Source of the DNA: Algibacter amylolyticus
GTDB taxonomy: Bacteria; Bacteroidota; Bacteroidia; Flavobacteriales; Flavobacteriaceae
Assembly (NCBI RefSeq): GCF_014202225.1
Contig: NZ_JACHGE010000005.1
Coordinates: 1-64,000 of the forward strand
DNA length: 64,000 nt
Reading direction: 5' to 3'
Made by a program: the position numbers and the translations under genes
Shown here: piece by piece, positions 8,207-60,993 of the stretch
How positions within the stretch are numbered: the stretch's first letter is position 1
How the letters are laid out: every line of letters starts with the position of its first letter
The notes under the pieces: generated by a model
Told to the model about the DNA's origin: nothing
The model's database searches: none
What the model saw: the letters and a program-made list of their open reading frames with translations, nothing else

Positions 8207-8558
8207 AAATACCTGAAATATGTTATGTTTAAATTTAAAAAGGAATTATTTACTTAATGCAAGTTGATAAAAATTATAGTTTTTACTTATAACTAATTAT
8301 CCATTGTGTATAAATAATGGTTCATTTAAGTGAATTTTGGGCTTATAAGCTGTTGTTTTTACAATTTATGTACAACCATACTACGGAAGACTATTTTAAA
8401 TTAGAACCTTTTTTAAAATATCCTGAAGCTATATTAAGTTTCATTTTATAACGCCCCAATAAAATCTTTTTAATGCATTTATTCTATTCGAATTAAATAT
8501 TTTTTAAAGATTGTATTTGCATTTACCGAAAACTAGAAGCACTAATTATAAGCTCCTT
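8207..8558. other. 352-bp intergenic region upstream of the acetylesterase operon
   Basis: No open frame with support. It must hold the promoter of the operon that starts at 8206. A degenerate copy of the locus-wide direct repeat lies at 8268..8299. At the far end a weak hairpin (AAAACTAGAAG with CTTTTAGTTTT, about 8529..8567) overlaps the stop of the DUF1080 gene but lacks a good T-tract. The rest is AT-rich with nothing recognisable. Confidence 0.4.
8268..8299 (-). promoter_or_regulatory. Degenerate copy of the 21-bp direct-repeat operator
   Basis: On the + strand TAAAAATTATAG (8268) is followed 20 bp later by TATAACTAATTA (8288), 62 bp upstream of the acetylesterase start. The spacing is 20 rather than 21 and no -7-like box sits at the usual distance, so this is the weakest member of the set. 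Confidence 0.3.
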
Positions 8559-9398
8559 TTAGTTTTTTAAAAACTCCTCTATTGGTAAACTCTCACTAAA
8601 CTCTTTAATTTTAATATTCTTATAATATATTTCGGCTGTTTCAGATTGAAAACCAATAATACCTTCGCTTGGATTTAAATTAAAGGCCACATTAACCACC
8701 TCGCCATTTAGCTTATGAATGGTGTATTTATCGCCCATTACTATAATTTCGCATTGGTTCCATTTATTATTTAAAGCATTATAATTTTTAGTAGGTGATG
8801 CAAAATGCAACCAATTTTTACTTTCATCTAGCTTTCCGCCTTCGTTTGGATGTAAATACGTATCCCCTTCTGGAACGGCATACCAATCGTATTCCACATC
8901 TTTAGGGCGAATTAAATCGCCGGTATGGTTACGGTTTTTAGTATGGTCGTAACGCACTTGATATTCAATACCTGTAGGCCATATTTTATCGTCCACTATA
9001 TGATAATAAACGCCTGCATCATATTGCCACCGTTTAAAGTTATTGGCTATTTTCTTGCCCCATTTATACTGAAATTTTAAAATATACTTACTGTATTTTT
9101 TATTGGTATAGAAAAGGCCGTGAGTCCCATTTTCACCTGTTTCTAAATCTAGACTATCGGGAAAATTTTTATAGACATGCACTTTTTTATTGTGAATAGC
9201 ATATACTTTTTTGGCCATAGCCTCATCGCCATTTCGTAACTTAAGATGCCATCCATCCCAATTTTTTCCATTAAAAATTTTTACAAAGCCCTTATTGCCT
9301 GTCTTCTTATTTTGCGATTGCGCAATACTTGACAGTAAACTAAACACAACAACAAAAACTGTTAATAGATTGAATTTAAGATATTTCATTTTGTACAT
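8559..9398 (-). CDS. Secreted DUF1080 (3-keto-disaccharide hydrolase-like) protein
   Basis: The 279-residue protein has a signal peptide (MKYLKFNLLTVFVVVFSLLS) and one DUF1080 domain. A FNGKNWDGW opening, a WPTGIEYQV strand, and the closing FNLNPSEGIIGFQSETAEIYYKNIKIKEF are the standard markers of this concanavalin-like fold. Some DUF1080 proteins cleave 3-keto-glycosides, and others are only known as sugar-binding. Two starts are possible, 9398 (MYKMKYLK) and 9389 (MKYLK); the second gives a cleaner signal peptide. It lies just past a terminator at 9433..9468, so it depends on read-through or a promoter I could not see. No keto-forming dehydrogenase is in the window. Confidence 0.8.
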   Translation of the reverse strand: MYKMKYLKFNLLTVFVVVFSLLSSIAQSQNKKTGNKGFVKIFNGKNWDGWHLKLRNGDEAMAKKVYAIHNKKVHVYKNFPDSLDLETGENGTHGLFYTNKKYSKYILKFQYKWGKKIANNFKRWQYDAGVYYHIVDDKIWPTGIEYQVRYDHTKNRNHTGDLIRPKDVEYDWYAVPEGDTYLHPNEGGKLDESKNWLHFASPTKNYNALNNKWNQCEIIVMGDKYTIHKLNGEVVNVAFNLNPSEGIIGFQSETAEIYYKNIKIKEFSESLPIEEFLKN

Positions 9399-9432
9399 TA
9401 TGAATTTAAAATTACTACGATTTATTATTTAA

Positions 9433-9468
9433 AAAAAAACAGCACCAAAATAATATTGGCACTGTTTC
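9433..9468 (-). terminator. Rho-independent terminator after the 9496-10620 LRR gene
   Basis: On the + strand AAACAG-CA-CCAA pairs with TTGG-CA-CTGTTT around a short AT loop, with two internal mismatches. Read on the minus strand it ends in a run of nine or more T. It lies 28 bp beyond the stop of the LRR gene. Confidence 0.8.
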
Positions 9469-9495
9469 TTCTAATTTTATAAAGTCTTAAAGCGA

Positions 9496-10620
9496 TTATT
9501 GCTTAACTATACGCTGTGTAAACTGACCTGCATCTGTTTTTACTTTAAACAAATACATACCTGCACTTAAGTTAGAAATATTAATTTCTGATAAATTAGT
9601 ATTTACATTTCTGTTTAAAAGCGATCTACCGTTTAAATCGAAAACAGAAACCTCAGCATTCACAGCTTGTACATTTTTAATAGACACTACTCCACTTGTT
9701 GGGTTTGGGTAAACAGAAAAACCTAAAGCTTTAGCATCAACTGTTTTTACGCTTAATGCTGGCATTGTACCTTCAATAATGTTAGCAGAAGGAAATTTAC
9801 CCCATGAAGGATGTGTTTCGTAAGCAGATTTTGAACCTACTGGCACATATATTTTAACTGTAGTATCATTAAAATCATCACCTTCCACACCATTTGGAAG
9901 CCATTCCATTCTAAAAAATTTAGAATCGTTAGCAAAAGTAACATTTGCAAGTTGTGTAGCATCCCAATTAAGTTGTACTTGCTCTAAAATATTTGCACCG
10001 CCAGTATCCCCTAAAAATAATGTACCTACACTCACAACTGAACTAGGAACATTAAATTCCTTAACACCATCCATATTATAAAGCCCACCGTTTCCAATAG
10101 TTTCAACAACAGGAATATTTAAACCTGTAATACCAGGACAATCAAAAAACGCATAATTATCAAGATCGGTACAAGCAGATAAATCGATAACACCCGTTAA
10201 ACCTTTACATAACACAAAAGCATTACTTCCCATATCTACAATGTTCTCCAAATTAATTGTAGTTAAATTAGGGTTATCTCTAAAGACGTGTGCATCTAAT
10301 TTTGTCACTGAAGCTGGTAAACTTACCGTTTCTACGGCGGCATTATCTTCATTTCCCGCTCCTTTATTATTAGCTGTATTTACACTAAAAGCACCTACTC
10401 CAATACCTGTAACAGTATAAGGAATAAAACCATCCATAGTAGATCCTGGTATTACTACATTTGTTTCTGGAACTATCATTGAATGCAGATCTACATAACC
10501 ATTAGTTGCATCTGTAATGGTATAATTAAAGGTTCCATCATTAAAATCAATTGCCGGTTTTTGTGCGCTAATGGTTGCTGTTACCATTAAGGCGAATAAA
10601 AATTGTAATGTTTTTTTCAT
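9496..10620 (-). CDS. BspA-type leucine-rich-repeat surface protein with T9SS tail
   Basis: The 374-residue protein has a signal peptide (to about residue 19, TISAQ). BspA/LRR_5-type repeats follow (VSLPASVTKLDAHVFRDN, INLENIVDMGSNAFVLCKG, INIPVVETIGNGGLYNM-like units; about residues 25-280). The C-terminal type IX sorting domain (about 300-374) opens with FSVYPNPTSGVVSIKN and ends FTQRIVKQ. Expected location is the outer surface. BspA repeats usually mediate binding, and no catalytic motif is visible. It is a single-gene unit with its own direct-repeat operator (10687) and terminator (9433), and it resembles the LRR gene at 10932 and the LRR part of the fusion at 12322, so it probably arose by local duplication. 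Confidence 0.88.
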   Translation of the reverse strand: MKKTLQFLFALMVTATISAQKPAIDFNDGTFNYTITDATNGYVDLHSMIVPETNVVIPGSTMDGFIPYTVTGIGVGAFSVNTANNKGAGNEDNAAVETVSLPASVTKLDAHVFRDNPNLTTINLENIVDMGSNAFVLCKGLTGVIDLSACTDLDNYAFFDCPGITGLNIPVVETIGNGGLYNMDGVKEFNVPSSVVSVGTLFLGDTGGANILEQVQLNWDATQLANVTFANDSKFFRMEWLPNGVEGDDFNDTTVKIYVPVGSKSAYETHPSWGKFPSANIIEGTMPALSVKTVDAKALGFSVYPNPTSGVVSIKNVQAVNAEVSVFDLNGRSLLNRNVNTNLSEINISNLSAGMYLFKVKTDAGQFTQRIVKQ

Positions 10621-10686
10621 AATAAAAAATATTTTAGTTATTTATATTTAGTTACTGCTAAATTGTTAAAATATTCACAATTAACT

Positions 10687-10719
10687 TTTAAATTAATACC
10701 CAATTGATATAACAATATG
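10687..10719 (-). promoter_or_regulatory. 21-bp direct-repeat operator upstream of the 9496-10620 gene
   Basis: + strand half-sites TTTAAATTAATA (10687) and TATAACAATATG (10708) start exactly 21 bp apart. A -7-like box (CTAAATTG on the + strand) lies at 10658..10665, leaving the 21-nt gap seen at other copies. The second half-site is the weaker one. Confidence 0.55.
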
Positions 10720-10871
10720 CCCAATTCCACCTAAATTAATGACTTACAATACATGAACCACATGATTATGAGAGCTTTAACTTACTTATTTAGACTTAAA
10801 TAATTCTCTCTAGAATAATAGATTAAGCAATTATTAGACGTGTAAACCTTCAGTAATTTAAATTTTAAAGC

Positions 10872-10931: not shown

Positions 10932-12017
10932 TTAATTTTTTAACACCCGTTTTACTAATTGCCCATTACTAGTTTCAACTTTAAAAACATATACACCTGC
11001 AGCGTAGTTTGAAATATCTATGCGTGAATTAGCCGTTTTTAATAAAGACCTACCGTTAATATCGTAAACTGTAACTTTTAGGTTTGTATTATTATTTTTA
11101 ATATTAACTATTCCGCTAGTTGGATTTGGATATAGTTTTAAACTTAAGGCTTGCTCTAGCTTGTTTGTGCTTAAAGTTACTGTTCCATCAGTTATTGTAC
11201 CAAAATCTTCCCATATGGCTGCTGCTGCATAGTCCCCTGTTTTCCCAGCTGGAACGATTAATGTTGCATCCCCTAAAACAACTCCAGTAAAAGCATTTGC
11301 ACCTACAGTAGCTGGGACTGGATTATTAACTTGAACACTATTTAACGCTCCACAGTTTATAAATGCACTAGCACCGATTGAAGTTACACTACTCTGTATA
11401 ACTACAGAATTAAGTAAAGAACAATCTCTAAAAGTTTGAGATGGTAATTCTGTTATTGATGTAGATGCAGATAAATCTGCTGTTAATATACCTGAGTTTC
11501 TAAATACACTTGTTCCTAAAGTAGTTAATGTACTGGGCGTAGTTACTGCTGTAATATTTGCACTACCGTTAAACCCACCATTCCCTATTGATTCTGCAGA
11601 ACTTATAATGCTAGTTATATCTCCTGAAATATTACTTAAAATAAAACCTCTATTGTCAATAGTTATAATACCATTAGTGGTTGTAAAGGTAACGGTTTCC
11701 ACTACACTATTCCTAAATGGTGAGTTACCAATAGATGTAACAGTACTAGGTAATTCAAGAGATGTTAAGGTAGTATTAGGATTAAAAGCTTCATCTCCAA
11801 CTCTTGTAACTGAACATGGAGTACTTCCTATTGGTTCATTTACAGAACTAGGTACAATTGCAGTTACTAAAGAACTTCCTATAACCTCCACCTCAAAAGG
11901 GGAATCATTTGTTATTTTATAATCAATGTCTGAGTCTGTAAACGTGTCCCCAATTCCTTGCGCACCTGCTAAAGTTACAGTTAAAAATGTAATAAATAAT
12001 AGTAATGATTTTTTCAT
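10932..12017 (-). CDS. BspA-type leucine-rich-repeat surface protein with T9SS tail
   Basis: This 361-residue protein has a signal peptide ending near TLAGAQ. LRR_5 repeats fill about residues 60-260 (LELPSTVTSIGNSPFRNS, TPSTLTTLGTSVFRNSG, VVIQSSVTSIGASAFINCG). The type IX sorting domain starts at LKLYPNPTSGIVNIKN (about 290) and ends LVKRVLKN. It is probably a surface binding protein. It has its own operator at 12084 and terminator at 10872, the same unit design as the genes on both sides. There are no catalytic residues to point to. Confidence 0.88.
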   Translation of the reverse strand: MKKSLLLFITFLTVTLAGAQGIGDTFTDSDIDYKITNDSPFEVEVIGSSLVTAIVPSSVNEPIGSTPCSVTRVGDEAFNPNTTLTSLELPSTVTSIGNSPFRNSVVETVTFTTTNGIITIDNRGFILSNISGDITSIISSAESIGNGGFNGSANITAVTTPSTLTTLGTSVFRNSGILTADLSASTSITELPSQTFRDCSLLNSVVIQSSVTSIGASAFINCGALNSVQVNNPVPATVGANAFTGVVLGDATLIVPAGKTGDYAAAAIWEDFGTITDGTVTLSTNKLEQALSLKLYPNPTSGIVNIKNNNTNLKVTVYDINGRSLLKTANSRIDISNYAAGVYVFKVETSNGQLVKRVLKN

Positions 12018-12083
12018 AATAAAGAATATTTTAGTTATTAATATTTAGTTAGCTCTAAGTTGTTAAAATTTTAACAATTAACC

Positions 12084-12116
12084 TTTAAATTATAGCCCAA
12101 ATGCTATAAATTTAAG
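12084..12116 (-). promoter_or_regulatory. 21-bp direct-repeat operator upstream of the 10932-12017 gene
   Basis: + strand half-sites TTTAAATTATAG (12084) and TATAAATTTAAG (12105) are 21 bp apart, 67 bp upstream of the start codon. The -7-like box at 12055..12062 (CTAAGTTG) is a poor match to CAAAnnTA but sits at the usual 21-nt gap. Confidence 0.65.
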
Positions 12117-12251
12117 CACACCATGCTTTAATAAGCTGTAAATCACAGTGCTTTGTAGGTGTTAATTTACGGATTACACCTTAAAAAACTTAATTGCCGT
12201 GGTTAGACATGAAAGCTATAATCTTAAATTATTAGCATGAATTAGAACTTT

Positions 12252-12321: not shown

Positions 12322-14757
12322 CTATTGCTTGACAATACGTTTTACAAATTGGCTATTTTCAACTTGGATTTTAAATAGATAGACGCCCGAAGCTAGGTTA
12401 GACAAATTAATTTCAGACAAGGTATTGTTTAAAGACTTACTTAATAATGCTCTACCATTTAAATCGTAAACGGTAACAGCAGCCTCCATAACTTGGCTAT
12501 TATTAATTGAAACCGTACTACTTGTTGGATTAGGAAAAACACTAAAGCCTAATTCTTTTTCTAGGCTATTCACACTTAAAGTACCTTCTTGTATATTAAA
12601 ATCGGTCCAAACAGCGGCTGCTTCGTAATAATTGGCAGTACCTGTTGGCACTAATAAGTTTATATCGCTTAACGTTAAACCACTAAACAAATTACCTACG
12701 GTAGCATCTGCAATATCTCCCGGTGTTCCCCAGTTTACCTGCATATCTGTTATGCCTGTGCACCCTCTAAAAGCGGCAACGCCCATAGTGGTTATGGTAC
12801 TAGGAATATTAATAGTGGTTATTGATTTACAATCTCTTAGCATTTGGCCTGGTATTACTGTCCATTCAATAGGAATAGTAAATTCTGTTAACCCTGTACC
12901 TCTAAGCGATCCAAGACCTAAAGTTAAACTTCCTGGAACAATTACCGACGTAATTGAACTACAGTTAATAAACGTATAACTACCTGTACTAACCGTATTT
13001 GTAAAATCTAATGGTGCTAATGCTAATGAAGAACAACTATTAAAACTATGGTCTCCGTAAGTTATTATATTATCAAGATTTATAGTTGTTAACCCCGTAC
13101 AGCTATGAAAAGCATTGTTTCCTATAGCTACTACTGTACTAGGAAGCGTTACATTTGTAATTCCGGTTTCATCTTGAAAAGCACCAGCACCAACAGCCAC
13201 AACACTAAATGACATTGAACCATTATCAGCTTGCTCTGGAATTACAGCATTTGCTGTTTCTTGCCCTGAAACAAATCCTGTAACTTCACATTCATTAGGG
13301 CTAGTACCTAATACGCTATATGTATACGTACCATCATCAAAAGTTAAATCTTCTACACCTACACACGAATCAGTGATAACCGTATTTCCTGAACCATTAT
13401 CCGTAACTGGCCCTGTGGTATTAATAATACTTGAACTTGTTAACGAATTTATTTCAATTGGCATTTCTGTACAATTATTTAAAGTAATACCAGATGTAGA
13501 CGTTGTTCCTAACGGAGAGAAAGGATTAGCTCCAGACGGTCTAGTAGTACCAACTAAAATAGAATGAACTTGCGGTCTAACAACATCATCAAATTTTGTG
13601 AGTGTCACATTATGGTTATTTCCTCCAATAGTAGCAATGGCATGTAATGTTGTTGTAGCCACGTTAGGTATTAAAGCTAACTCTACGTTAGATGCTCCAC
13701 CATTAAGATACAGTAATGGACCGTTAACAGCATCACCTCTACTGTTCTCAATAGTTACTTCTTCAACTTGATAACCAGCTTCACAGCCTGTAGCCTCACA
13801 ATTTTGCATCAATACATCGCCGCCATATCTTGTAAAAGCAAAGCCGGAACGGGTATTTTTAGCAACGCAATTTATTAAGGTAATTGCACCAGTGGTATGA
13901 CCATCAACACCACCAGCACCGTATGAACGATAACCAACTTCACTTAACGATTTGGTATACCCAGGAGTAATTACCTTATCTCCATTATAATTAGCATAAA
14001 CTGCAGCAAAATCTCTATCAAAAGCAGGACCTGAAGTTTCTGCTAGCATATCATTGGTTGTTCTTGTTACAGCTTCTGCATGACAATCTTGAAAAAGTAC
14101 ATTTCTTCCGCCTTGAATAAAAAATAAATGCCCAAATGCTTGAGAATATATCGAACAACGAATAATATTAATATTTAGCCCTTCAACTAACAACCCACTA
14201 TGCTTACGTAGGTTCACTAAATTACCATCGCCTTTACCAAGAAGATCGCCATAGCCATAAGGATAAGATCCGTTTACATTTAAAGTAACATCCTCCATGG
14301 TATTATTTTCTCCAGCAATTGTTACAGATTGCATTCCTGGACTAGAAGGTGCAGAGTTTCCAATATCGGTAACTGTTAAACCTTTTATATTAACAAAGTT
14401 TCCTGTTACATAAAACTCGATAATACGAGTACCATAATCATTTAATAACTCTGAATTTATTTCAATAGTTACTCCTGTTAAATCGAAAGTGTTATTACTT
14501 CCACTAAATTCAATCATCGCATGCCTATTATTTGCATCGGGTGTGGTAGCTGCAATCACAGCTGGTGTTAAGTAATCTTCCATTTGATAAACACCAGGTG
14601 TCATAACTACCGATTGATTTGATAGAGCTGCAAAACTTGCTAACTCCGCTACACTTGAAATTGTTACTTGTGCCGACACCCTAAAAAGAAATAAAAGTGA
14701 AAATGCACAAAATAAAAAACAGTGTTTCCTTTTTAAAAATTGTTGTTTTACTACCAT
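12322..14757 (-). CDS. Beta-helix protein fused to BspA-type LRR domain, T9SS tail
   Basis: This 811-residue protein has three parts behind a signal peptide (to about residue 30). Residues about 35-450 are a right-handed parallel beta-helix of the family seen seven times in this window, with the shared motifs GSYPYGYGDLLGKG, LRKHSGLLVEG, AFGHLFFIQGG and a DMLAETSGPAFD segment. Residues about 470-720 are BspA/LRR_5 repeats like those of the two genes downstream (LPSTVVAIGNNAFHSC, IPSTITTMGVAAFRGC). The last 80 residues are a type IX sorting domain (FSVFPNPTSSTVSINN to FVKRIVKQ). The beta-helix is probably a lyase or other backbone-cleaving domain (inference), and the LRRs an adhesive module. 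It forms a single-gene unit with operator 14879 and terminator 12252. Confidence 0.85.
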   Translation of the reverse strand: MVVKQQFLKRKHCFLFCAFSLLFLFRVSAQVTISSVAELASFAALSNQSVVMTPGVYQMEDYLTPAVIAATTPDANNRHAMIEFSGSNNTFDLTGVTIEINSELLNDYGTRIIEFYVTGNFVNIKGLTVTDIGNSAPSSPGMQSVTIAGENNTMEDVTLNVNGSYPYGYGDLLGKGDGNLVNLRKHSGLLVEGLNINIIRCSIYSQAFGHLFFIQGGRNVLFQDCHAEAVTRTTNDMLAETSGPAFDRDFAAVYANYNGDKVITPGYTKSLSEVGYRSYGAGGVDGHTTGAITLINCVAKNTRSGFAFTRYGGDVLMQNCEATGCEAGYQVEEVTIENSRGDAVNGPLLYLNGGASNVELALIPNVATTTLHAIATIGGNNHNVTLTKFDDVVRPQVHSILVGTTRPSGANPFSPLGTTSTSGITLNNCTEMPIEINSLTSSSIINTTGPVTDNGSGNTVITDSCVGVEDLTFDDGTYTYSVLGTSPNECEVTGFVSGQETANAVIPEQADNGSMSFSVVAVGAGAFQDETGITNVTLPSTVVAIGNNAFHSCTGLTTINLDNIITYGDHSFNSCSSLALAPLDFTNTVSTGSYTFINCSSITSVIVPGSLTLGLGSLRGTGLTEFTIPIEWTVIPGQMLRDCKSITTINIPSTITTMGVAAFRGCTGITDMQVNWGTPGDIADATVGNLFSGLTLSDINLLVPTGTANYYEAAAVWTDFNIQEGTLSVNSLEKELGFSVFPNPTSSTVSINNSQVMEAAVTVYDLNGRALLSKSLNNTLSEINLSNLASGVYLFKIQVENSQFVKRIVKQ

Positions 14758-14878
14758 ATACTTAGAGTTTAATTTTTTTTGATTTTTTTTATTAGTTATA
14801 GTTCTATTTCGATATTATTTAGCAGAATAAATCTTGATGTCATTTTATGTAAAATTAATACACTAAACCAACAAACCT

Positions 14879-14911
14879 TATAAATTATAGGCCTATGTTT
14901 TTAAATTATAG
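14879..14911 (-). promoter_or_regulatory. 21-bp direct-repeat operator upstream of the beta-helix/LRR fusion
   Basis: + strand half-sites TATAAATTATAG (14879) and TTTAAATTATAG (14900) are 21 bp apart and nearly identical. A -7-like TAAAATTA lies at 14850..14857, again 21 nt away. This is one of the clearest copies. Confidence 0.75.
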
Positions 14912-14950
14912 ACCTTTTGATTATTGAAAGTACACCGGCCCTTTTCGTTA

Positions 14951-15040: not shown

Positions 15041-15778
15041 TTATTCTTTAATAAACTTAAAAGTTGAGTTTTTAGTTCCTTCTAAATTCATTAAGTACAC
15101 CCCTTTAGATAAATCACTTACATTAAGCTCTACTTTTCTTACGCCAGATTGTATAACTTCTTTTTTAATTACTTTTCCAGTAACATCTAAAATGGTGTAT
15201 TGCCTGTAATCTGCAGTAGGCATTGCAATGGTAAGTGCTTCATTTACCGGATTAGGATAATAACCAATTTTACCTTCTTTAATTTTATCAGCAACAGATA
15301 AGGATGCTGCGTCTTTTAAAGTAAACAGGTCTATGTTAAATTGGCCTCCGAACGTAAATACAAAATACACGGTTTGACTTCCTGTTACCGATTGACTTAA
15401 CATTCCATTTTCAGTTTCAACATAATTCTGCCATCCTGTTTTTCCATTAGCCGTAACACTAGCTATTGCTGTTCCTGGCACCCCTGTACCGTTTACGCCA
15501 TCATCTAAGTGCATTGTAACTGTTTGATCACCTGTTTTGTTACTAGCTAAATGAGCAGAAAAAGCAACAATATTTGTTAAATCTACATTATCATACCTAG
15601 CCCAATCCCCACTTGCTATAAAGCCTATATTTTTTGCTTCATTATCTTCTATTGTTATATTAGCTCCATGAAGCTCACTATTGTCTTCTGATTGAAGAAT
15701 AATTGATTGTGCGAATGCACCAGAGAATAATGCTGTTGTTGAAAGAACAGCTGTAAAAAGTAAAGTTTTAATTTTCAT
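15041..15778 (-). CDS. CBM6-only surface protein with T9SS tail
   Basis: The 245-residue protein has a signal peptide ending SGAFAQ (residue 24). One CBM6-type module follows (about 28-155): ILQSEDNSELHGANI, GFIASGDWARYDNVDLTNI and GSQTVYFVFTFGGQFNIDLFTLK are the usual strands. The type IX sorting domain (about 170-245) opens GYYPNPVNEALTIAMP and ends STFKFIKE. No catalytic domain exists, so it is probably a surface glycan-binding protein. It forms a single-gene unit with operator 15998 and terminator 14951. The ligand is unknown; the CBM6 modules of nearby enzymes are likely relatives. Confidence 0.88.
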   Translation of the reverse strand: MKIKTLLFTAVLSTTALFSGAFAQSIILQSEDNSELHGANITIEDNEAKNIGFIASGDWARYDNVDLTNIVAFSAHLASNKTGDQTVTMHLDDGVNGTGVPGTAIASVTANGKTGWQNYVETENGMLSQSVTGSQTVYFVFTFGGQFNIDLFTLKDAASLSVADKIKEGKIGYYPNPVNEALTIAMPTADYRQYTILDVTGKVIKKEVIQSGVRKVELNVSDLSKGVYLMNLEGTKNSTFKFIKE

Positions 15779-15997
15779 TTTTATTGGATTTTAGTTAATA
15801 ATTAATATTTATAATAAAACACTAAGTCTATTACATGTTGTTATTTTGTGTAGTTTTATGCTAATAGTTTTTAAAAAGCATTCGTTTCTTTATTAAAGCT
15901 TAACAAATTGATATTGTGAACTAACTATAAATTAATTCTTATTAAAATCAATTATATTAAAGACCTTTGCAAATTAGTTTATACAAAGAATACATTT

Positions 15998-16030
15998 TAT
16001 AAATTATAGTTCTTTTCTTATAAAATATAA
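15998..16030 (-). promoter_or_regulatory. 21-bp direct-repeat operator upstream of the CBM6 gene
   Basis: + strand half-sites TATAAATTATAG (15998) and TATAAAATATAA (16019) are 21 bp apart. The pair abuts the stop codon of the gene at 16033, so the promoter starts right at the end of the upstream operon. A -7-like GCAAATTA lies at 15969..15976, giving a leader of about 190 nt. Confidence 0.7.
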
Positions 16031-16032
16031 TC

Positions 16033-22851: not shown

Positions 22852-22904
22852 ATTTATAGTTTGTTTAGTTGTAGCTAAAACTATCAATCTATTAAAGATT
22901 TGTC

Positions 22905-22937
22905 TGTAAATTATGATGCTTTGTTTTAAAATTATCA
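22905..22937 (-). promoter_or_regulatory. 21-bp direct-repeat operator upstream of the 21079-22851 gene
   Basis: + strand half-sites TGTAAATTATGA (22905) and TTAAAATTATCA (22926) are 21 bp apart. A -7-like TAAAACTA sits at 22876..22883, leaving the usual 21-nt gap. This site also argues for the shorter start of the gene. Confidence 0.65.
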
Positions 22938-22974
22938 CTCATATTTACTTTAAACTATAAAAATCATAGAAATA

Positions 22975-29487: not shown

Positions 29488-29549
29488 ATTAGCTTAATTA
29501 GTTAGTCCTATATTTTCAAATAAAAATACATCGAAGCTAAAAAATGACA

Positions 29550-29582
29550 TATAAATTATGATTCGTTTTCTATCAATTATAG
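29550..29582 (-). promoter_or_regulatory. 21-bp direct-repeat operator upstream of the 26530-29487 gene
   Basis: + strand half-sites TATAAATTATGA (29550) and TATCAATTATAG (29571) are 21 bp apart. TAAAAATA at 29521..29528 sits where the -7 box is expected, 21 nt from the proximal half-site. The start codon is 62 bp further on. Confidence 0.75.
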
Positions 29583-31948: not shown

Positions 31949-31996
31949 CTTATAACACTTGTAGTTCAGCTATATACACAAACACGATGAAGATTA

Positions 31997-47180: not shown

Positions 47181-47210
47181 ATCAAAATTAACATATAGTA
47201 GAATTTTAAA

Positions 47211-47243
47211 TATAAATTATAGTCCATTTCATATAAACTATTA
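47211..47243 (-). promoter_or_regulatory. 21-bp direct-repeat operator upstream of GH95
   Basis: + strand half-sites TATAAATTATAG (47211) and TATAAACTATTA (47232) are 21 bp apart. A good -7 box, CAAAATTA (TAATTTTG on the coding strand), lies at 47183..47190, 20 nt from the proximal half-site. Confidence 0.78.
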
Positions 47244-47348
47244 CTTATAAAGGTTATGAATAGCCTATTTAGCATAAACGAGAAGTGTTGCTAACTCGTT
47301 TTATATTTTCAGGTTGAAATAATTTAAATTCATTAAAAAAAGCGATCA

Positions 47349-48335: not shown

Positions 48336-51080
48336 CTAAAAATTAATTATTCTGAAATCGCCTACCTTAAACTCTCTTTCTTTTTTATTGTGTTTTATTA
48401 TAACGGGAACCTCGTTATTTAACCACAGTTTGCCATTTTTCACTTCTAAAACCACATTTCCCATTTGTTTCGTGGTTATTTTAAAGTCACTATTTTCTAA
48501 TAAATTGCCATTAGCCATAAACAAAATAGTATTTCCTTTATTTTCTTTACCAACTAAAGCATAATGGGCATTTGTTGATATCCCTTTATATTTAGCCATT
48601 TTTTGATTTTTTGAAGAGAACACTAAATCTTCTCTACCCGATTTATTTGTAATTTTTAAGCCAACAAACTCTTTTCCGTTGTTTTCATCTTCAAAACAAT
48701 GTATTGCTGTTATACTTTTACCTTCGGTTGAAGTAAAGGGCTCGAAAACCGAAACAAATGGACGTTCCCAAGCTTCGCCATATTGACGGGCAGCAAAAGT
48801 TAAATACGGTTTTTTATCGACCTCGTAAGGTATAACATGATTTCCTTTAAAAGCTTTGTTTGGTGGTGATTTTAAAGAAAATATTTCTCTATTTTCTGAT
48901 CCCATCATCCATAGATTCATAAACACATCTTCTTCGCCATCTGGTCTATCAATTTTCCATTGCACTTGATAATCCTTATTGGTTTTAATTGATTTTTTAT
49001 CCCATTGATAATCGAAAGCATACAAGTAACCACCTGCAAAAGCCATTTCATCTGTAGGCTCTAAGTTTAAAGGTTTTCCTGAAGCATCTAAAACGTCCAT
49101 GGTTTGCCCTAAATTATGATAAAAATAATCATGAAATTTATCGCCTTTACGTTGTTTTCTAGAACGGAAAATATCAATATAATACCCTGTAGTTTCACCC
49201 GTTTTTATGGTACTAACAATTCTGCTTTGATCGCTACGTGTTTCTGGTTCTAGAAAATAAACATCGGAATAGGTTATGTTTGAATAATAGCCCGTTTTCT
49301 TTTCGGCCTTTGGATATTCACCCATTAAATCGAATGCATGATTGCTAAACATTTCGGTATATGATGAAACACCATCTACCATTACCGTATTATGTGCCGG
49401 AAACTGCGAGTAGAACTCTAAATAAATAGGTTGTAAATAGCCAGCGCCTTTTCCTGGATCGGCTCCTTGTACAAAGCCTTTTCCGTACAGTTCTAAATTA
49501 ATACCATTAGCATGCATGTGGTTACCAAGAGAGGCATTTAAAGAGGCCATTAAACCATGTTTTCCTGTTCCCATACGTTGAACATGCCAGCTAACATTAG
49601 GTGCGTAAAAGGTTTGAGTGATATAATCTTTAATATCTCCGGCTTTGTAATTTACATTAAACTCTAAAGGTTTACTTGCAAAGAATGATGATATACTAGC
49701 TTTGGGTTTTCTAGATTTTTTACTGGAATTTTCATCTATTTCGGTGAATAAACGGTACATGCCCGTAAATTCCTTTTCTAGAGCCGTATTACCATTACTT
49801 TGCGCCACTCGAATTAGGTTTGTCATAGCCTCTGTACCAATACCTGTATAGTTAGAATCGCCAAAAGCCACTGCTTGTCCATTAGGAAAAAGGTACTGCG
49901 GCAACATTTTAACTGCCTTTTCCATAACAGGCATATATGGCAAAATATTATGATTAAAGGTATTATCGAAATCTTTAATAAAGGCTGTTAAATCTTTAGT
50001 TACACCTTGCGAATACCCTGGACATTCTGCCCAAACCCCATTAGTTTTATCGTAACCAAAATCTAAAAATTTATTTAAGGACCATTGGCGCGTAGAGGTT
50101 TTGTTTAAGATATAATCGATATAGTATTCGCGACCTTTTTTATCTTCATAATTTTCATTATTCTGAAGTACCATAGCTGCTTTTAAGATAATTTTAGCTT
50201 GGTGTAAATTCCAGTTATTTTGTGGTACGCCGTTTTTTATAATTTGGTCGGTCCAGCGTTTAATAGTCGTTTCATACATTGCCATATTTCCGGAATGCTT
50301 GTCTTCAACATAGCCATGTAAAAAATCGTAAAGTTCGGCAACATCAATAAGTACGTGTTCGTGTATAACTTGAAAGTTTGTAAAACCCACTAAGGTTTGT
50401 ATATGGCCATTAAGCAAATCGATTGGTTCGCTTCTATACGACATGCCTTCTAAATACGTGTGAACAATATCGTAAGCAAATTTAGCATAGCGTTCATCCT
50501 TTTCTAGCCAATAAATAAAAGCAGCATCTCTAGCTAAACCTAAAATATTAGCATTAATAGAATAAATAATTCTTCCGGTTTTAGACGGATGCACCCACTC
50601 GAAAGGATGACCTTCTTTACTTTTATTAGGATAATACAAACCACGAGGATCGTCCATGTATGGCAACACATCTTCCAACTTAGGTGTTCCGTAAGGTGTT
50701 GTATAATCTCTAGACCCTACAAAACGAACCGTTGGCACGGGCGCTTCACCATCGGCATGTGAGTAATTTATGCCATTAACATAAATATTAGTCGCCTTGG
50801 TTTTCCAATGCATTTGCAAACGAGACACCATCCATTCTGGATCATTAACATGTTGTTCCACATAAGCATCAATACGATTATGAATGCCTTTTAAAACATC
50901 TTGAGCCCAAGATTCATTTTTAATTGTTTTTTCTAAATCTTTTTTACCACTTTCTGTAATATACAAACGCGGGTAACCTTCCTCTAGATTAGTTGGAAGT
51001 GGAATAGTTGAATTGACCTGAGCATTTGCCAAAGGCATTGCACAAATAAGAATTGTTAGGGTGATAAATTGCTTTAACAT
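48336..51080 (-). CDS. Heparinase II/III-like polysaccharide lyase, large secreted form
   Basis: The 914-residue protein has a signal peptide ending PLANAQ (residue 21). The N-terminal (alpha/alpha) toroid (about 25-460) includes NNWNLHQAKIILKAAM, where Asn/His are candidates for catalysis. The heparinase II/III beta-sandwich follows (about 480-900) with ASLGNHMHANGINLELYGKG and SQFPAHNTVMVDG. The architecture is that of uronate-cutting lyases, and the length is above average because of an extended C-terminus. It cannot be placed in a numbered PL family by eye. It sits 48 bp after GH92 and 60 bp before the esterase. There is no sorting tail, so it is probably periplasmic. Confidence 0.82.
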   Translation of the reverse strand: MLKQFITLTILICAMPLANAQVNSTIPLPTNLEEGYPRLYITESGKKDLEKTIKNESWAQDVLKGIHNRIDAYVEQHVNDPEWMVSRLQMHWKTKATNIYVNGINYSHADGEAPVPTVRFVGSRDYTTPYGTPKLEDVLPYMDDPRGLYYPNKSKEGHPFEWVHPSKTGRIIYSINANILGLARDAAFIYWLEKDERYAKFAYDIVHTYLEGMSYRSEPIDLLNGHIQTLVGFTNFQVIHEHVLIDVAELYDFLHGYVEDKHSGNMAMYETTIKRWTDQIIKNGVPQNNWNLHQAKIILKAAMVLQNNENYEDKKGREYYIDYILNKTSTRQWSLNKFLDFGYDKTNGVWAECPGYSQGVTKDLTAFIKDFDNTFNHNILPYMPVMEKAVKMLPQYLFPNGQAVAFGDSNYTGIGTEAMTNLIRVAQSNGNTALEKEFTGMYRLFTEIDENSSKKSRKPKASISSFFASKPLEFNVNYKAGDIKDYITQTFYAPNVSWHVQRMGTGKHGLMASLNASLGNHMHANGINLELYGKGFVQGADPGKGAGYLQPIYLEFYSQFPAHNTVMVDGVSSYTEMFSNHAFDLMGEYPKAEKKTGYYSNITYSDVYFLEPETRSDQSRIVSTIKTGETTGYYIDIFRSRKQRKGDKFHDYFYHNLGQTMDVLDASGKPLNLEPTDEMAFAGGYLYAFDYQWDKKSIKTNKDYQVQWKIDRPDGEEDVFMNLWMMGSENREIFSLKSPPNKAFKGNHVIPYEVDKKPYLTFAARQYGEAWERPFVSVFEPFTSTEGKSITAIHCFEDENNGKEFVGLKITNKSGREDLVFSSKNQKMAKYKGISTNAHYALVGKENKGNTILFMANGNLLENSDFKITTKQMGNVVLEVKNGKLWLNNEVPVIIKHNKKEREFKVGDFRIINF

Positions 51081-53532: not shown

Positions 53533-54930
53533 TTATTTTGCCACTGAAACCACACCTTTTCTAACCTCACTTTCCCAATTTTCTAGTTGCGACAGCATGT
53601 TTTTAACACGTTCTGGCTCGTTGGCCGAAAGATCTTGTTTTTCAGATAAATCATTTTTTAAATTGAAAAGCTCGATAGATTGTTTACCTTCATTTTCTAT
53701 GGTTACAAGCTTCCAATCTCCATTTCTTACAGCTTTTTTGCTTCCAAAAACCCAATACAGATTTCTATCTTCAAGCTCCGTTTCATTAATCAAATGTGAT
53801 TTAAAGTTAATGCCATCTATATTTTTAACCGAAGGCTTACCTCCAGCAAAATCGACTAAGGTTGGTAAAAAATCCATAGTCATAACCGTGGCATTACTAA
53901 CAGAATTCGCCTTAATTTGATTAGGGTAACTAATTATAAGTGGCACACGATGTCCGCCCTCATAAACCGATGCTTTTGAGTCTCTAAGTCCGCCGTTATC
54001 GCCTCGTTTTCCTGCCGCACCATTATCTGAACAAAAGATAATCATGGTGTTTTCATTTAAATCTTCAGCATTTACGGTTTTCATGATTTCACCAATACCT
54101 TCGTCCATAGTTTCAATCATTTCAGTGTAAATTAATTGAACACTATCCTTGGCAACCTTTCTTATATATTTTTTATTCCCTTCTTCTCTAACGGGTTTAT
54201 CGTGTCGACCTTGAATTGGATAATGTGGAGATTCTTGAGACAAGTATAAGAAAAATGGTTTTCCTGTTTTTTTAGGGTTATTATTCTTGATATAATTAAT
54301 GCCGTAACGTGTTATCAAATCTGTAGTATATCCTTTTTCATTATCAATAACATTACCTTTCCACCAATCTAAATAGCCTTCTTGATCTATGTGTGAATGG
54401 TAATCAATATTCCCGCCAACAAACCCCGTAAATGTTTCGAAACCTTGATATGTAGGATTAAATTCTTCGGCATAACCTAAATGCCACTTACCAAACATAG
54501 CCGTAGCATATCCCAAATTTTGCAATTCTTCTGCCAAGGTTAACTCTTTTAAATTCAAGCCTACTTCTCTATGATTTGCGGCCGTAATTACGCCTTCTAC
54601 ACCTGTACGTTGTTGGTATTTCCCGGTCATTAAAGCTGCTCGTGTTGGACTGCATACTGGTCCGTTTGAATGGAAATCTAAAAACTTTACACCTTGAGCG
54701 GCTAGCTTATCAATATTTGGTGTGTTTATTTTTGTACTACCGTAACTTGATAATTCACCATAACCCAAATCGTCTGCCATAATTAAAATAATATTAGGCT
54801 GAATAGATTTATTACTTGCTTCTTGTGGTTGCTTTTCTTGTTTTTTACAAGACAATATTACCACAGTAATACCTAAAATTAATTTAACGGCATGCTTGAA
54901 ATACATAGACTTTTTCTTTTTTGTTTTCAT
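53533..54930 (-). CDS. Sulfatase (family S1), lipoprotein
   Basis: I take the start at 54930 (MKTKKKKSMYF) rather than 54954; 54906 (MYFKHAV) is a third option. The product has about 465 residues with a lipoprotein signal (LGITVVILSCKK). NIILIMADDLGYGELSSYG gives the metal-binding DD, and SNGPVCSPTRAALMTGKY the signature with C93 (Thr at the Ser position). MIIFCSDNGAAGKRGDNGGL and KASVYEGGHRVPLII are the later blocks. It resembles the 24551 enzyme in the signature and in the EGGHRVP block but lacks that protein's extra C-terminal domain. It opens the operon controlled by the operator at 55056. Confidence 0.93.
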   Translation of the reverse strand: MKTKKKKSMYFKHAVKLILGITVVILSCKKQEKQPQEASNKSIQPNIILIMADDLGYGELSSYGSTKINTPNIDKLAAQGVKFLDFHSNGPVCSPTRAALMTGKYQQRTGVEGVITAANHREVGLNLKELTLAEELQNLGYATAMFGKWHLGYAEEFNPTYQGFETFTGFVGGNIDYHSHIDQEGYLDWWKGNVIDNEKGYTTDLITRYGINYIKNNNPKKTGKPFFLYLSQESPHYPIQGRHDKPVREEGNKKYIRKVAKDSVQLIYTEMIETMDEGIGEIMKTVNAEDLNENTMIIFCSDNGAAGKRGDNGGLRDSKASVYEGGHRVPLIISYPNQIKANSVSNATVMTMDFLPTLVDFAGGKPSVKNIDGINFKSHLINETELEDRNLYWVFGSKKAVRNGDWKLVTIENEGKQSIELFNLKNDLSEKQDLSANEPERVKNMLSQLENWESEVRKGVVSVAK

Positions 54931-55055
54931 TTTTAAGAAATAATTTTCATGCAACTGAGGTACGTTTATTTATGGCTTTTAAACTGTTTAACAAAAACCA
55001 AAAACTACCCCTGATACAATAGGTATGCAATCTAATTTTTTAACGAAAACTTTTA

Positions 55056-55088
55056 TATAAATTATAACCCACAGATTATAAATTATAG
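55056..55088 (-). promoter_or_regulatory. 21-bp direct-repeat operator upstream of the 53533 sulfatase
   Basis: + strand half-sites TATAAATTATAA (55056) and TATAAATTATAG (55077) are 21 bp apart and nearly identical; this is the best copy in the window. A -7-like CAATCTAA starts at 55028, leaving about the usual gap. Confidence 0.82.
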
Positions 55089-55161
55089 TTGTTTTTATAT
55101 TGTAGCGCATTAGACTTTGCTTTTTTCTTGTTAAATGAGGCAAAATCGATTTTAAAAACAA

Positions 55162-55227: not shown

Positions 55228-57321
55228 TTATAATTTTACTACCTTTTTTGTTACTTTATTGTTATTATCGCTAACCGTTAAAAGATATAATCCACTTTTA
55301 AGATTTGACAAATCTAAATTAACTTCTTTTAAATTTTCTGGTTGAGTTTCTAAAACTATTTGTCCATTAATACTATATAAAGCAATTTTAGTTTGAGCTC
55401 TATTTAGGTTTGTATTAGCCAATGAAAGTTTAAGATTATTTGAAACTGGATTAGGATATAAGCTGATTGAATTGGCAAAATCATTAACTGATAATGAGGA
55501 CTCAAACACTTGTACCTCTGCTAAAGATAATGCTACCGAATCATCTAATTGCACAATTTTAATCGTCTCCCCAATAGCACCACCAGCATCGATAGTTGCT
55601 AAAGGGTTTGGAGCATCGTTGGTGAAGGTTTTCGCGAACGTTTCAATTCCATCTGCATTATAAACGTAGACTGCAAAATTAGCTAGCCTATCGATATAGC
55701 TTTGTTTACCTGTTCTGTTATACACAATGATATCTCCTATGGCATACTCTGATGCCAAACGTACTTTCCACCATGCGCCAACATCAGAAGGATCCGTATG
55801 TGTTACCGAATTATTATTAAAATTACCATCAGTATTACCATCATTAGCTCTACTAGGAGCACCTCCGTATGCCGTTGATGACTGGCTTGCCGTACCTACC
55901 AATGCTAAATTATCTGAATCGCAATTTAAAGCGGTTACCGTATTATTTGTTCCGTTATCTGTAATGTTATCTGTATCGCAGGCTATAACCGTTACATTAT
56001 CGCTATCCGTATGCATTATTACCGGGAAATTCGTGAAATTTTTAACTACTATATCATCAGACGAAAAATTATTCTGGGAAGCATTACTACCATTTAGTAC
56101 TCTAAGACCTTGTAAATCGCCAGATACCATAATTTTAAGATTACTTGGTATTTCATCTGCTGGAATATCACTTCTAAACGTTAAATCATGATTTTCACCT
56201 CCTATATAGGCCATAGCATCATGCCCATTGTAATAAGCGTCACTTGGTGGTAATACAGTAATATCTGCGATGTAACCATTATCACTACCATAGGTATTTT
56301 TAAAAACTGGGCCGTAAATAGCATCTGCTCCACTATCTACAACGGTACCACTTCCTATTGAATAGCCATTTTCGCATCCAATTACCGTACAACCTTCAAC
56401 ATATTTTGTACCCGTAGCATGAGCTAGTGTAACTCCTGTTCGAGTGTTTTTTATGGTACAATTTAATACGGTAGGGTTATCTGTTCCTCTTTGAATCTCA
56501 ACACCATCAATATACGTCGTTCCTCCATTGTAAGCACGAATTCCTGCTTCTTGTAAACTCATCATATAACCAGCTGGTAACTTATAGCCCCAAGTTGTCA
56601 TGAAATCTACATCGAAGGCTGGTCCCGAAGTTTCTGCTAACATATCATCTGTAGTACGCACTTCGCCTTCAACATAACACCCTTCAATAACCGGGTAACT
56701 TGCAGCCTGCATAAAAATACAGTGTCCGTAGGTACGTGAAATGATATCGCAATCTTTAACATGGTTACGTAAACCTCTTACTAATAAAACACTATGCTTA
56801 TAGTGCTTTATTACGGTATTTGTACCGCCTTTACCAAAGGCATCGCCGTAACCATAAGGATAAGAACCTCTAGATGAAATATGAAAACCTTCAATTCTAT
56901 TATCTCTTCCATCCATAACAATGTTTTGTGCCGATTTAGAAGGTCTTGTATTACCAACATCGACCATTGTTAGATTTTTAAGCACATTATTATTACCTAA
57001 TATTTGTAATTCATTTACAGATACATTGCCAAATTTAGTAAAGACAAAAGTGGCTATATTTAAAGTTACTCCTGTAAAATCGTAAGTACTATCAGACCCT
57101 TCAAAAAGTAATAAAGGATTTGAAAATGTTCCGTTTGTAATATCAGAACCATTAATTGAATAATCGCCGGGTGCTAGTTTTACATCTACATTATCTTGTT
57201 TTAGATAAGGCAGTAATTCTTGAAGCGAATTTACAGTAACTGTTTGTGCTTTTATTTGCAACACAAACAATAATAAAAGTAAGGTAAAACCAGATTTTAG
57301 TAATGTGTAGTTTTTTGTCAT
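55228..57321 (-). CDS. Beta-helix protein of the GHxx[FY]xQ family with F-type-lectin-like module and T9SS tail
   Basis: The 697-residue protein has a signal peptide ending LQIKAQ (residue 26). The beta-helix (about 28-465) shows GSYPYGYGDAFGKGGTN, KHYKHSVLLVRG, TYGHCIFMQAASYPVIEG and SLQEAGIRAYNG. An F5/8-fold module (about 470-610) follows, with TASQSSTAYGGAPSRANDGN and YNRTGKQSYIDRLANFAVYV, which look like F-type (fucose-binding) lectins. The sorting domain (about 618-697) opens ISLYPNPVSNNLKLSL and ends VTKKVVKL. It is a single-gene unit between operator 57373 and terminator 55162. The lectin part closely resembles that of the GH-A enzyme at 18359. A surface enzyme that docks on fucose-rich glycan is a reasonable reading. 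Confidence 0.84.
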   Translation of the reverse strand: MTKNYTLLKSGFTLLLLLFVLQIKAQTVTVNSLQELLPYLKQDNVDVKLAPGDYSINGSDITNGTFSNPLLLFEGSDSTYDFTGVTLNIATFVFTKFGNVSVNELQILGNNNVLKNLTMVDVGNTRPSKSAQNIVMDGRDNRIEGFHISSRGSYPYGYGDAFGKGGTNTVIKHYKHSVLLVRGLRNHVKDCDIISRTYGHCIFMQAASYPVIEGCYVEGEVRTTDDMLAETSGPAFDVDFMTTWGYKLPAGYMMSLQEAGIRAYNGGTTYIDGVEIQRGTDNPTVLNCTIKNTRTGVTLAHATGTKYVEGCTVIGCENGYSIGSGTVVDSGADAIYGPVFKNTYGSDNGYIADITVLPPSDAYYNGHDAMAYIGGENHDLTFRSDIPADEIPSNLKIMVSGDLQGLRVLNGSNASQNNFSSDDIVVKNFTNFPVIMHTDSDNVTVIACDTDNITDNGTNNTVTALNCDSDNLALVGTASQSSTAYGGAPSRANDGNTDGNFNNNSVTHTDPSDVGAWWKVRLASEYAIGDIIVYNRTGKQSYIDRLANFAVYVYNADGIETFAKTFTNDAPNPLATIDAGGAIGETIKIVQLDDSVALSLAEVQVFESSLSVNDFANSISLYPNPVSNNLKLSLANTNLNRAQTKIALYSINGQIVLETQPENLKEVNLDLSNLKSGLYLLTVSDNNNKVTKKVVKL

Positions 57322-57372
57322 AGCTATTGTAGTTTAGTATTTCCAAAATTAAACTATATCAACCCTAGACCT

Positions 57373-57405
57373 TATAAACTATGTTGCAGACTTAATAAAT
57401 TAAAG
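57373..57405 (-). promoter_or_regulatory. 21-bp direct-repeat operator upstream of the 55228-57321 gene
   Basis: + strand half-sites TATAAACTATGT (57373) and AATAAATTAAAG (57394) are 21 bp apart. The -7 box CAAAATTA (TAATTTTG on the coding strand) lies at 57344..57351, 21 nt from the proximal half-site. Confidence 0.7.
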
Positions 57406-57450
57406 CTCAATTTCAAGTAAATAGCTATCTACAATTAATTTTTCTTACAG

Positions 57451-59394: not shown

Positions 59395-59497
59395 ATGTGA
59401 TACTTGATTTATATTTTTTTGAAAAAGCATGAACTTAATAAACGCCAAACATAATATGATTACATATGGTATTTATAAATACTTTACATGAAGGCTT

Positions 59498-60910
59498 TTA
59501 AGACTTAACTTCTATAACTTGACCTTTACTTTCTACCTCTAAATTTTGGGTGCCTGAATGTTTTAAAACTTGTGTTTGTGTTTTATTTTCAAGCTTAATA
59601 TTGGTAGCATGCATGGTCGCTTTTGAATTGTAATTACCGTAGCCTTCCCAAACTGAAAGTTTAATAGCCATGTCTTTAGGTATAAAATCGTCGTTACCAG
59701 TTTTTATAACAATATGATGCCCTGTTCCATTAATTTTAGCTAACATATTATTAGCCATTCCATTGCGACTGTCTAAAATATTAATATTTACGGCAGCATT
59801 TTTGGCATTAGTATAAGGCACTCCAAAGGCTTCTCCATATTTTGCATCGGCACTACAATTAATCACAACATCTTCGTTACCTACATTAAACCCTGTTGTA
59901 ACGCAGTCGCGCACTACACAATTAATAACTTTATCGCCAAATTTATTTAAACCTACACAAATCCCTCTTCGCATTTGAAAAACAGAGCAATCTTTTACGG
60001 TTGTATTTTTAGTAGGGTGTCCCTGATATTCAGGGTATAAACGAATGCCATCTTCGCTAAGCGATACTATTTCTCCTGGTAAAATCTTTCCATCAAGTCC
60101 AATTACAGTACCTTCTACATAGCCGTTTTTATGAGCATGTTTTGGTTTTAAAGCATAAAAATCCCTATCGAATCCATAGCCCGAAGTTTCAGCTAAAATA
60201 GCATCTGTAGTACGTAATAAGCCATCGACATGGCAATCTTCAATCAATGTGTTTTCTGCGCCTTGTAAAAATATAGCATGCCCCATGGCGCGCATATGCA
60301 CTTTACAACCTATAAGGGAAACATTTTTTGCAGGATAGCCTACACGAATGCCATTCATTTTTCTAACATCGCCACCGCCTAAACCGTATAAATAGCCATA
60401 ACCCCAAGGGTTTGATCCAGAAGTACGCACCTCAACGTTTTTAAGTACTATACCTTCTCCAACAACATTAAATATTTTGTTTTTACTCTGTAGGCCAGAT
60501 GCATCGCCGTAGGTTTCAATATATAAACCCTCAAAAACAGTATTGTTTCCTGAAATCTCAATAGCACAATACATGCTATTACCATCGTCGCTTTTAGCCA
60601 AATCTTTACGACTAAAGAGCTTGGTATCTACCATAAACCGCACACCAGTTAAATCGTAATGTGAATTGTTTCCTGTAACTGCTATAAATCGGATACTTTT
60701 AGCTTGGTCTATTTGGTAATTTCCAGGGGCAAGTTTTATTTTAACATCATCTTTATCGATATACTTTTTAAAATCGGAAAGTGAATTTACTGTTATAATT
60801 TCTTTTTGAATACTTACAACTTCATCTTTAGCTTTAGCTCTAGCATCTTGACAAGACACAAACAAAATTAGAAATGACAAGCTTAAAAAACACAATTTAG
60901 TTAATCTCAT
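59498..60910 (-). CDS. Beta-helix lipoprotein, divergent member of the GHxx[FY]xQ family
   Basis: The start at 60910 (MRLTKLCFLS) is chosen over 60970 because it leads into the lipoprotein signal (LSFLILFVSCQD) and leaves the operator at 60961 in the promoter. The product has about 470 residues. It shows GSNPWGYGYLYGLGGGD, AMGHAIFLQGAENTLIED, DAILAETSGYGFDRDFYAL and SLSEDGIRLYPEY. Unlike the other six relatives it has no K-[HR]-[SC] segment after the glycine-rich loop (here MNGIRVGYPAKN), which may mean another substrate or no activity. It precedes a heparinase-like lyase. Confidence 0.82.
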   Translation of the reverse strand: MRLTKLCFLSLSFLILFVSCQDARAKAKDEVVSIQKEIITVNSLSDFKKYIDKDDVKIKLAPGNYQIDQAKSIRFIAVTGNNSHYDLTGVRFMVDTKLFSRKDLAKSDDGNSMYCAIEISGNNTVFEGLYIETYGDASGLQSKNKIFNVVGEGIVLKNVEVRTSGSNPWGYGYLYGLGGGDVRKMNGIRVGYPAKNVSLIGCKVHMRAMGHAIFLQGAENTLIEDCHVDGLLRTTDAILAETSGYGFDRDFYALKPKHAHKNGYVEGTVIGLDGKILPGEIVSLSEDGIRLYPEYQGHPTKNTTVKDCSVFQMRRGICVGLNKFGDKVINCVVRDCVTTGFNVGNEDVVINCSADAKYGEAFGVPYTNAKNAAVNINILDSRNGMANNMLAKINGTGHHIVIKTGNDDFIPKDMAIKLSVWEGYGNYNSKATMHATNIKLENKTQTQVLKHSGTQNLEVESKGQVIEVKS

Positions 60911-60960
60911 AGGTTTAAATTTTGATACACATAAAATTAAGTCCGATTTAGTTTTTCTTG

Positions 60961-60993
60961 CATAAATCAACGTTCATTTTGTATAAACTATGA
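60961..60993 (-). promoter_or_regulatory. 21-bp direct-repeat operator upstream of the 59498-60910 gene
   Basis: + strand half-sites CATAAATCAACG (60961, weak) and TATAAACTATGA (60982, strong) are 21 bp apart. A -7-like TAAAATTA lies at 60932..60939, 21 nt from the proximal half-site, which supports the pairing. Confidence 0.6.

Follow-up and report, generated by a model that had tools for sequence, protein, structure and literature searches.

A direct-repeat operator in a large fucoidan-type locus of Algibacter amylolyticus and its likely reader, a hybrid two-component system

Introduction

Which protein reads a direct repeat that recurs before operon after operon of a large carbohydrate locus? 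The question is raised by a stretch of 64,000 nucleotides from Algibacter amylolyticus (contig NZ_JACHGE010000005.1, C5:1-64000, within a genome of 4.35 Mb), hereafter called the window, in which a sequence-only reading had described two half-sites 21 bp apart in the spacers upstream of successive transcription units. That reading took the repeat for an operator that reaches as far as the -33 region of the promoter, is bound by an AraC-type activator and defines a single regulon, and it named two possible regulators: the AraC-family protein encoded at 816-1679 or a hybrid two-component system (HTCS) encoded outside the window. The comparisons made here support the core of that proposal and separate the two regulators: we conclude that the HTCS encoded at C5:111349-115557 very probably reads the repeats and co-activates the locus.

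Results

Gene calling, which retained open reading frames (ORFs) of at least 80 aa and removed overlapping ones, gave 60 genes from 816 to 110854. Since every one of them is on the minus strand, the functional orientation of the repeat is the reverse complement of the plus-strand pattern under which it had first been noticed. Read in the orientation of the genes, the motif is GC.ATAATTTATA-N6-G..C.ATAATTTATA, with a distance of 21 bp between half-sites. Two approaches confirm that the repeat is real. On the plus strand of the window, pairs of TATAAATTATAG matching at least 20 of 24 positions occur six times at spacing 21 and zero or one time at other spacings from 12 to 44; at a cut-off of 19 positions there are nine pairs at spacing 21 and at most three at any other, and relaxing the cut-off to 18 and 17 positions brings spacing 28 up to the level of spacing 21 (11 and 11; 21 and 20). 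A blind expectation-maximisation (EM) search of 27 spacers then recovered the element unprompted, with a log-likelihood ratio of 199.4 against 91.4-100.4 for six dinucleotide-shuffled sets. The copies are degenerate, the half-sites of the eleven sites first reported matching 6-12 of 12 positions. The best-conserved column is motif position 20, a G in 15/15 scored sites (column counts use 15 of the 18 rows, leaving out 10688, 69887 and 116815), and it had been wrongly assigned to the spacer between the half-sites. A direct repeat of tandem sites about 21 bp apart is the layout of an HTCS-type operator. An operator of the SusR type was rejected because its tandem sites are separated by 67 or 77 bp.

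The repeat stands at a fixed distance from the promoter. A -7 box (TAnnTTTG) begins 22 nt past the end of the motif, where 10/16 sites score 5 or 6 out of 6, and in a scan of offsets from 0 to 61 no other single offset exceeds 2/16 sites. The sequence-only reading had put such a box 20-21 nt from the nearer half-site in most copies. In Flavobacterium psychrophilum the sigma-A box is TAnnTTTG at -12 to -5 (PMC9723704). Under that numbering the half-site nearer to the promoter would end near -35, where the -33 element of such promoters lies, and the natural reading of this layout would be an activator that takes over the -33 contact.

The operator is present in 15/15 spacers of at least 150 bp between C5:8207 and 111348, and among the seven spacers of 60-149 bp one has a site (57322-57450), one a weak candidate (69887) and five none. 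Twelve sites, two of them weak, lie within the window, and the series continues past it with four more at C5:74088, 93313, 94985 and 111031. We built a sequence model of the motif, R1, from 14 sites, leaving 8289, 10688, 69887 and 116815 out of its alignment. Over the whole genome R1 gave 16 matches at E<=0.003. Fourteen of them are the training sites, which match by construction, and the other two are C1:818494 and C2:48032; after these the E-value rises to 0.03. Strong matches are not spread over the genome, an outcome that would have counted against the sequence-only reading. Both additional sites are strong and unlinked to the locus: C1:818494 (L034:7495-7557) lies about 40 bp upstream of the gene of a secreted protein of 524 aa of the type IX secretion system (T9SS) type, for which no relative was found among solved structures (PDB) at E<=0.001, and C2:48032 (L035:7033-7091) lies about 50 bp upstream of a SusC/SusD pair. 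Other candidates were set aside. The EM candidates C5:69887 and 116815 (scores 10.8 and 9.3) are absent from the model matches at E<=10 and were not counted. Two matches of a loose pattern, C2:339680 upstream of the gene of an SSF transporter and C2:433958 upstream of that of a PSD-domain protein, reach only 12.6 and 12.5 bits in R1 (E about 0.7) and were left uncounted as well. Another loose match, at C4:210472, falls within a Cys/Met-metabolism gene and is missing from the R1 matches at E<=10. The loose pattern scan also brought up a 7-bp tandem array (TATTAAC) at G000:C2:322839-322896.

A complete HTCS is encoded in one polypeptide of 1402 aa at C5:111349-115557, 47 kb outside the window, with Reg_prop, Y_Y_Y, HisKA, HATPase_c, Response_reg and HTH_18 domains (Pfam), and its gene adjoins the operator at C5:111031. 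The genome encodes 24 HTH_18 proteins, eight of which are HTCSs with Reg_prop repeats in the same frame. We searched for the HTCS, for R1 and for the AraC protein in 249 genomes of the family each, including that of the window, which we take to be one and the same sample from their shared handles. An HTCS orthologue is present in 13/248 other genomes at 54-71% identity, the next best match reaching 38%. R1 matches occur in 13/13 genomes with the orthologue and in 5/235 without it (Fisher test, 5e-18, ignoring relatedness), and in 13/13 genomes the nearest match lies less than 10 kb from the orthologue. A more sensitive search of ten genomes found the motif in 4/4 with the orthologue, all four belonging to the 13, and in 0/6 without it. 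Among named Maribacter and Flavobacterium loci the motif was found at 5/5 loci of HTCS orthologues and at 0/9 loci of paralogues, a comparison that covers 14 of 80 loci, some possibly from the same organisms as the G-numbered genomes. The second recognition helix of the DNA-binding domain, GFNS[TA]AYF, is shared by 9/9 orthologues and by 0/20 of the other HTCSs in the alignment, among which L044 comes closest with GFNTASYF. In F. ajazii (L067) an operator site lies upstream of the HTCS gene itself; in the genome studied here, the EM search found no site in the spacer upstream of this gene. An operator that precedes the operons of a polysaccharide utilisation locus (PUL), lies near an HTCS gene and co-occurs with it corresponds to what is expected of an HTCS-type operator. 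Since the motif and the HTCS co-occur and the gene adjoins a site, the candidate outside the window is the likely reader of the repeat, rather than the AraC protein at 816-1679.

The operator recurs before homologous genes in related genomes. We fetched 20 R1 matches from four genomes with the orthologue, and all 20 lie outside ORFs of at least 70 aa, which make up about 83% of the sequence; the suspicion that the pattern might be found just as well inside genes is thereby answered. All 20 face a gene 2-471 bp downstream, two of them facing the same sulfatase gene, and for 19/20 a BLAST relative of a protein of this locus is encoded within 1.5 kb downstream (14/20 at 44% identity or more). These relatives are sulfatases, GH88 enzymes, FdlA-like lyases, GH31, an esterase and others, while SusC matches reach merely 27-28%. 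Genome G152 has eight sites across 94 kb beside the HTCS gene plus a remote one. In G023 the HTCS gene is at 3.71 Mb and four sites at 2.28-2.31 Mb (C1:2278594-2309684) and one at 2714979 are 1.0-1.4 Mb away from it; these remote sites precede relatives of a SASA esterase (70%), a heparinase-like protein (59%), a GH43-like protein (76%), a GH3 protein (29%) and a protein with a carbohydrate-binding module (CBM6; 56%).

The gene content of the locus points to its substrate. It is a PUL, with two SusC/SusD pairs at C5:95719-108507 and carbohydrate enzymes: eight sulfatases, two GH29, GH95, GH92, two GH88 and others, with fucosidases among the targets. Three relatives of the fucoidan lyase FdlA are encoded in the window, at 35770-37203 (phmmer E 2.1e-165 to 7xzf), at 55228-57321 (E 1.2e-231 to 7xzf), which also carries a fucolectin-like module (E 2.8e-21 to the fucolectin-related 2j1r) and a T9SS tail in Pfam, and, more distant, at 59498-60970 (E 7.4e-36), all on the minus strand. 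For FdlA of Flavobacterium sp. SA-0082, cleavage of sulfated fucoglucuronomannan between mannose and glucuronic acid was deduced (PMC9410043). Because the FdlA relatives occur together with the sulfatases and with GH29, GH95, GH92 and GH88 enzymes, the substrate is likely to be brown-algal fucoidan.

The twelve sites of the window, all on the minus strand and all found by the EM search, are given here together with their -7 region. Ten of them are training sites of R1. From the far end of the window, 60932-60994 (30.3 bits) precedes 59498-60910, the distant FdlA relative; 57344-57406 (33.0 bits), with the -7 box TAATTTTG, precedes the FdlA-like gene 55228-57321; 55027-55089 (31.1 bits) precedes the sulfatase gene 53533-54930, which opens a unit reaching to 47349; and 47183-47244 (30.7 bits), again with TAATTTTG, precedes the GH95 gene 44602-47145, whose unit extends to 31997 and includes the FdlA-like gene 35770-37203. 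Next come 31887-31949 (31.2 bits) before 29749-31797, 29521-29583 (33.2 bits) before 26530-29487, in a unit that reaches 23031 and encodes two sulfatases, and 22876-22938 (20.4 bits) before 21079-22851, in a unit to 16033, this site overlapping a longer reading of the ORF from a GTG start. Sites 15969-16031 (30.2 bits), 14850-14912 (35.4 bits) and 12055-12117 (29.5 bits) precede, respectively, the CBM6/T9SS gene 15041-15778, the gene 12322-14757 and the leucine-rich repeat (LRR)/T9SS gene 10932-12017. The last two sites are weak, and their R1 scores come from the model built without them. The operator at 10688-10720 (10658-10720 with its -7 region; EM score 13.1; 14.9 bits, E 0.12), upstream of the LRR/T9SS gene 9496-10620, had been listed at 10687 as one of the eleven copies; a site is indeed there, but a weak one. 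The one at 8289-8321 (8259-8321 with its -7 region; EM score 18.2; 10.5 bits, E 3.05) lies upstream of the unit 8206 to 816, which encodes a SASA esterase, GH39, DUF6250, GH3 and, as its final gene, the AraC-family protein with cupin-like and HTH_18 domains (816-1679, minus strand; Pfam); here a poor copy had been noted in the register of 8268, and the weak site holds although 8289 is the better register.

The sequences downstream of 10658-10720 and 12055-12117, before the two LRR/T9SS paralogues, are nearly identical, which points to a joint duplication of promoter and gene. Three fasciclin-domain proteins are encoded beside the two SusC/SusD pairs (L031:16511-19760 and L032:4530-6854). Past the HTCS gene comes what may be a uronate cluster of its own, L032:11676-17490, with phosphomannose isomerase-like, short-chain dehydrogenase, GntR and chondroitinase B-family genes. 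The proteins encoded at 48336-51080 in the window and at L030:16231-18903 are large and have no Pfam match; both are related to Uly1040, a protein of solved structure (E 2.4e-38 and 8.1e-33). An NCBIfam run on ten proteins returned only sorting domains above the cut-off.

Discussion

The motif, its fixed distance from the -7 box, its specificity within the genome, its co-occurrence with the HTCS and its recurrence before homologous genes are direct observations, and a mechanism can be proposed from them. Each repeat would be an operator of the single HTCS at C5:111349-115557. The propeller-type sensor of this protein would bind an oligosaccharide, probably derived from brown-algal fucoidan, and within that one polypeptide a phosphorelay would carry the signal by way of kinase and receiver domains to the AraC-type domain that binds DNA. 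The half-sites, separated by two helical turns on the same side of the DNA, would each be occupied by one HTCS molecule in contact with a G..C element and an ATAATTTATA element. Bound there, the protein would take the place of the -33 contact made by RNA polymerase or reinforce it. In this way some 16 promoters and about 60 genes over 110 kb, plus the two unlinked sites, would be turned on jointly. That one HTCS is the main switch of these promoters and genes, and that the operator travels with fucoidan genes where the locus breaks up in other genomes, seems to us rather likely.

Several points count against this interpretation. Sites 8289 and 10688 score poorly in R1, a model that was trained on the sites of this very genome, and the R1 search of the 248 genomes used stricter filters, by which weak matches are lost. 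Five genomes without the orthologue (G030, G104, G180, G233 and G262) have one match each, with E-values of 7.3e-4 to 2.0e-3, which exceeds the roughly 0.7 expected at this cut-off, the E-values of the model being themselves rough. Because of the kinship among the 13 genomes, which have parts of the locus in common, the Fisher value overstates independence. An FdlA-like gene (E<=1e-60) is present in just 5/13 genomes with the orthologue, and in one without it; the substrate of the orthologue may thus differ between genomes, which speaks against one fixed substrate. Finally, the AraC protein may act on the locus too, since a relative of it (E<=1e-80) is encoded in 12/13 genomes with the HTCS orthologue, and in 30 others.

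Other explanations have to be weighed against a reading by the HTCS. The repeat could be a by-product of AT-rich spacers, in which single half-sites are common, and this would fit the 29 genome matches of the loose pattern (against 13 for the pattern read backwards) and the tie between spacings 28 and 21 at loose cut-offs. We find it scarcely credible in view of the EM result against shuffled sets, the fixed distance to the -7 box, the genome-wide specificity and the conservation with the HTCS, all of which contradict it. Co-occurrence alone names no protein, and with 24 HTH_18 proteins in the genome another regulator co-inherited with the locus might read the repeat; this is improbable, given the closeness of every HTCS orthologue to a motif match, the published HTCS layout of the repeat, a recognition helix conserved in the orthologues only and the site that precedes the HTCS gene itself in L067.

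The AraC-family protein at 816-1679 is of the right type, lies inside the locus and, as noted above, is frequent in the genomes with the HTCS. It shares the locus with the HTCS in several relatives, and in G152 the two genes stand side by side and divergent (araC at C1:1521770-1522630). As the reader of the operator it is nevertheless very improbable, and we rejected it: the 30 genomes with a relative of the AraC protein but without the HTCS orthologue have an R1 match in 0/30 cases, and G023 has ten motif matches (E<=0.02) while its best AraC match reaches just 39%, a level that an unrelated paralogue in the genome of the window attains as well. The araC gene itself also sits behind the weak site 8289. 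This part of the earlier proposal therefore falls, and its alternative, an HTCS outside the window, stands. The protein may still regulate the system alongside the HTCS. The HTCS would then read the repeat and, acting at other sites, the AraC protein would tune a portion of the locus, for example in response to a monosaccharide; the frequent co-occurrence of the two genes and their arrangement in G152 are in favour of this, but no target could be assigned to the AraC protein, no search suited to a second motif having been made, and we regard joint action as possible but doubtful.

If the HTCS is the reader, the 66-bp signature of operator and promoter could locate fucoidan genes far from any locus. 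It already flags the unlinked SusC/SusD pair and the secreted protein without assigned function, candidates that methods based on gene neighbourhood would miss. The 14 strong sites of this one genome resolve an HTCS operator well, and with it the distance at which the -7 box of flavobacteria follows. They also link a very large fucoidan-type locus to a single sensor, which makes co-induction of the locus directly testable. A survey of the open-licence literature by title or abstract returned no HTCS operator in marine flavobacteria and no regulatory motif for a fucoidan locus.

The closest known systems include HTCS regulons described in Bacteroides thetaiotaomicron. For 16 HTCSs of this species, Ravcheev et al. 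(2013; PMC3878776) predicted operators, all direct repeats, on average 21 bp apart, and one operator described there has 12-bp sites separated by a 9-bp spacer. In electrophoretic mobility shift assays, two HTCS response-regulator fragments bind promoters holding such predicted sites (PMC11253607). The system described here resembles HTCS_Rgu-1 and HTCS_Hep as presented in the former paper in having a direct repeat of about 21 bp before PUL operons and a regulator with an AraC-type C-terminal domain, and differs from them in the sequence of the half-site, in the host group and in the fixed -7 distance worked out here. There are also many more sites here, about 16, whereas three are described for HTCS_Hep, the sole regulon compared by count (PMC3878776). 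SusR-like regulons likewise have direct repeats at glycan operons, but with 67 or 77 bp between the tandem sites, against 21 bp here (PMC3878776). The carrageenan regulon of Zobellia galactanivorans, as reported in PMC5698469, shares with this locus a marine host among the Bacteroidota, a sulfated algal glycan as substrate and unlinked genes including a distal susCD-like pair; the regulator tested there, however, is the AraC-family CgrA, and the main locus is without a susCD pair (PMC5698469). With Flavobacterium sp. SA-0082 the likeness lies in FdlA, known as an enzyme (PMC9410043), through its three relatives in the window. The locus thus appears to be under a known kind of control at an unusually large scale, and what is new is the sequence of the operator, the group to which its host belongs, how many sites there are and the fixed distance at which the -7 box follows.

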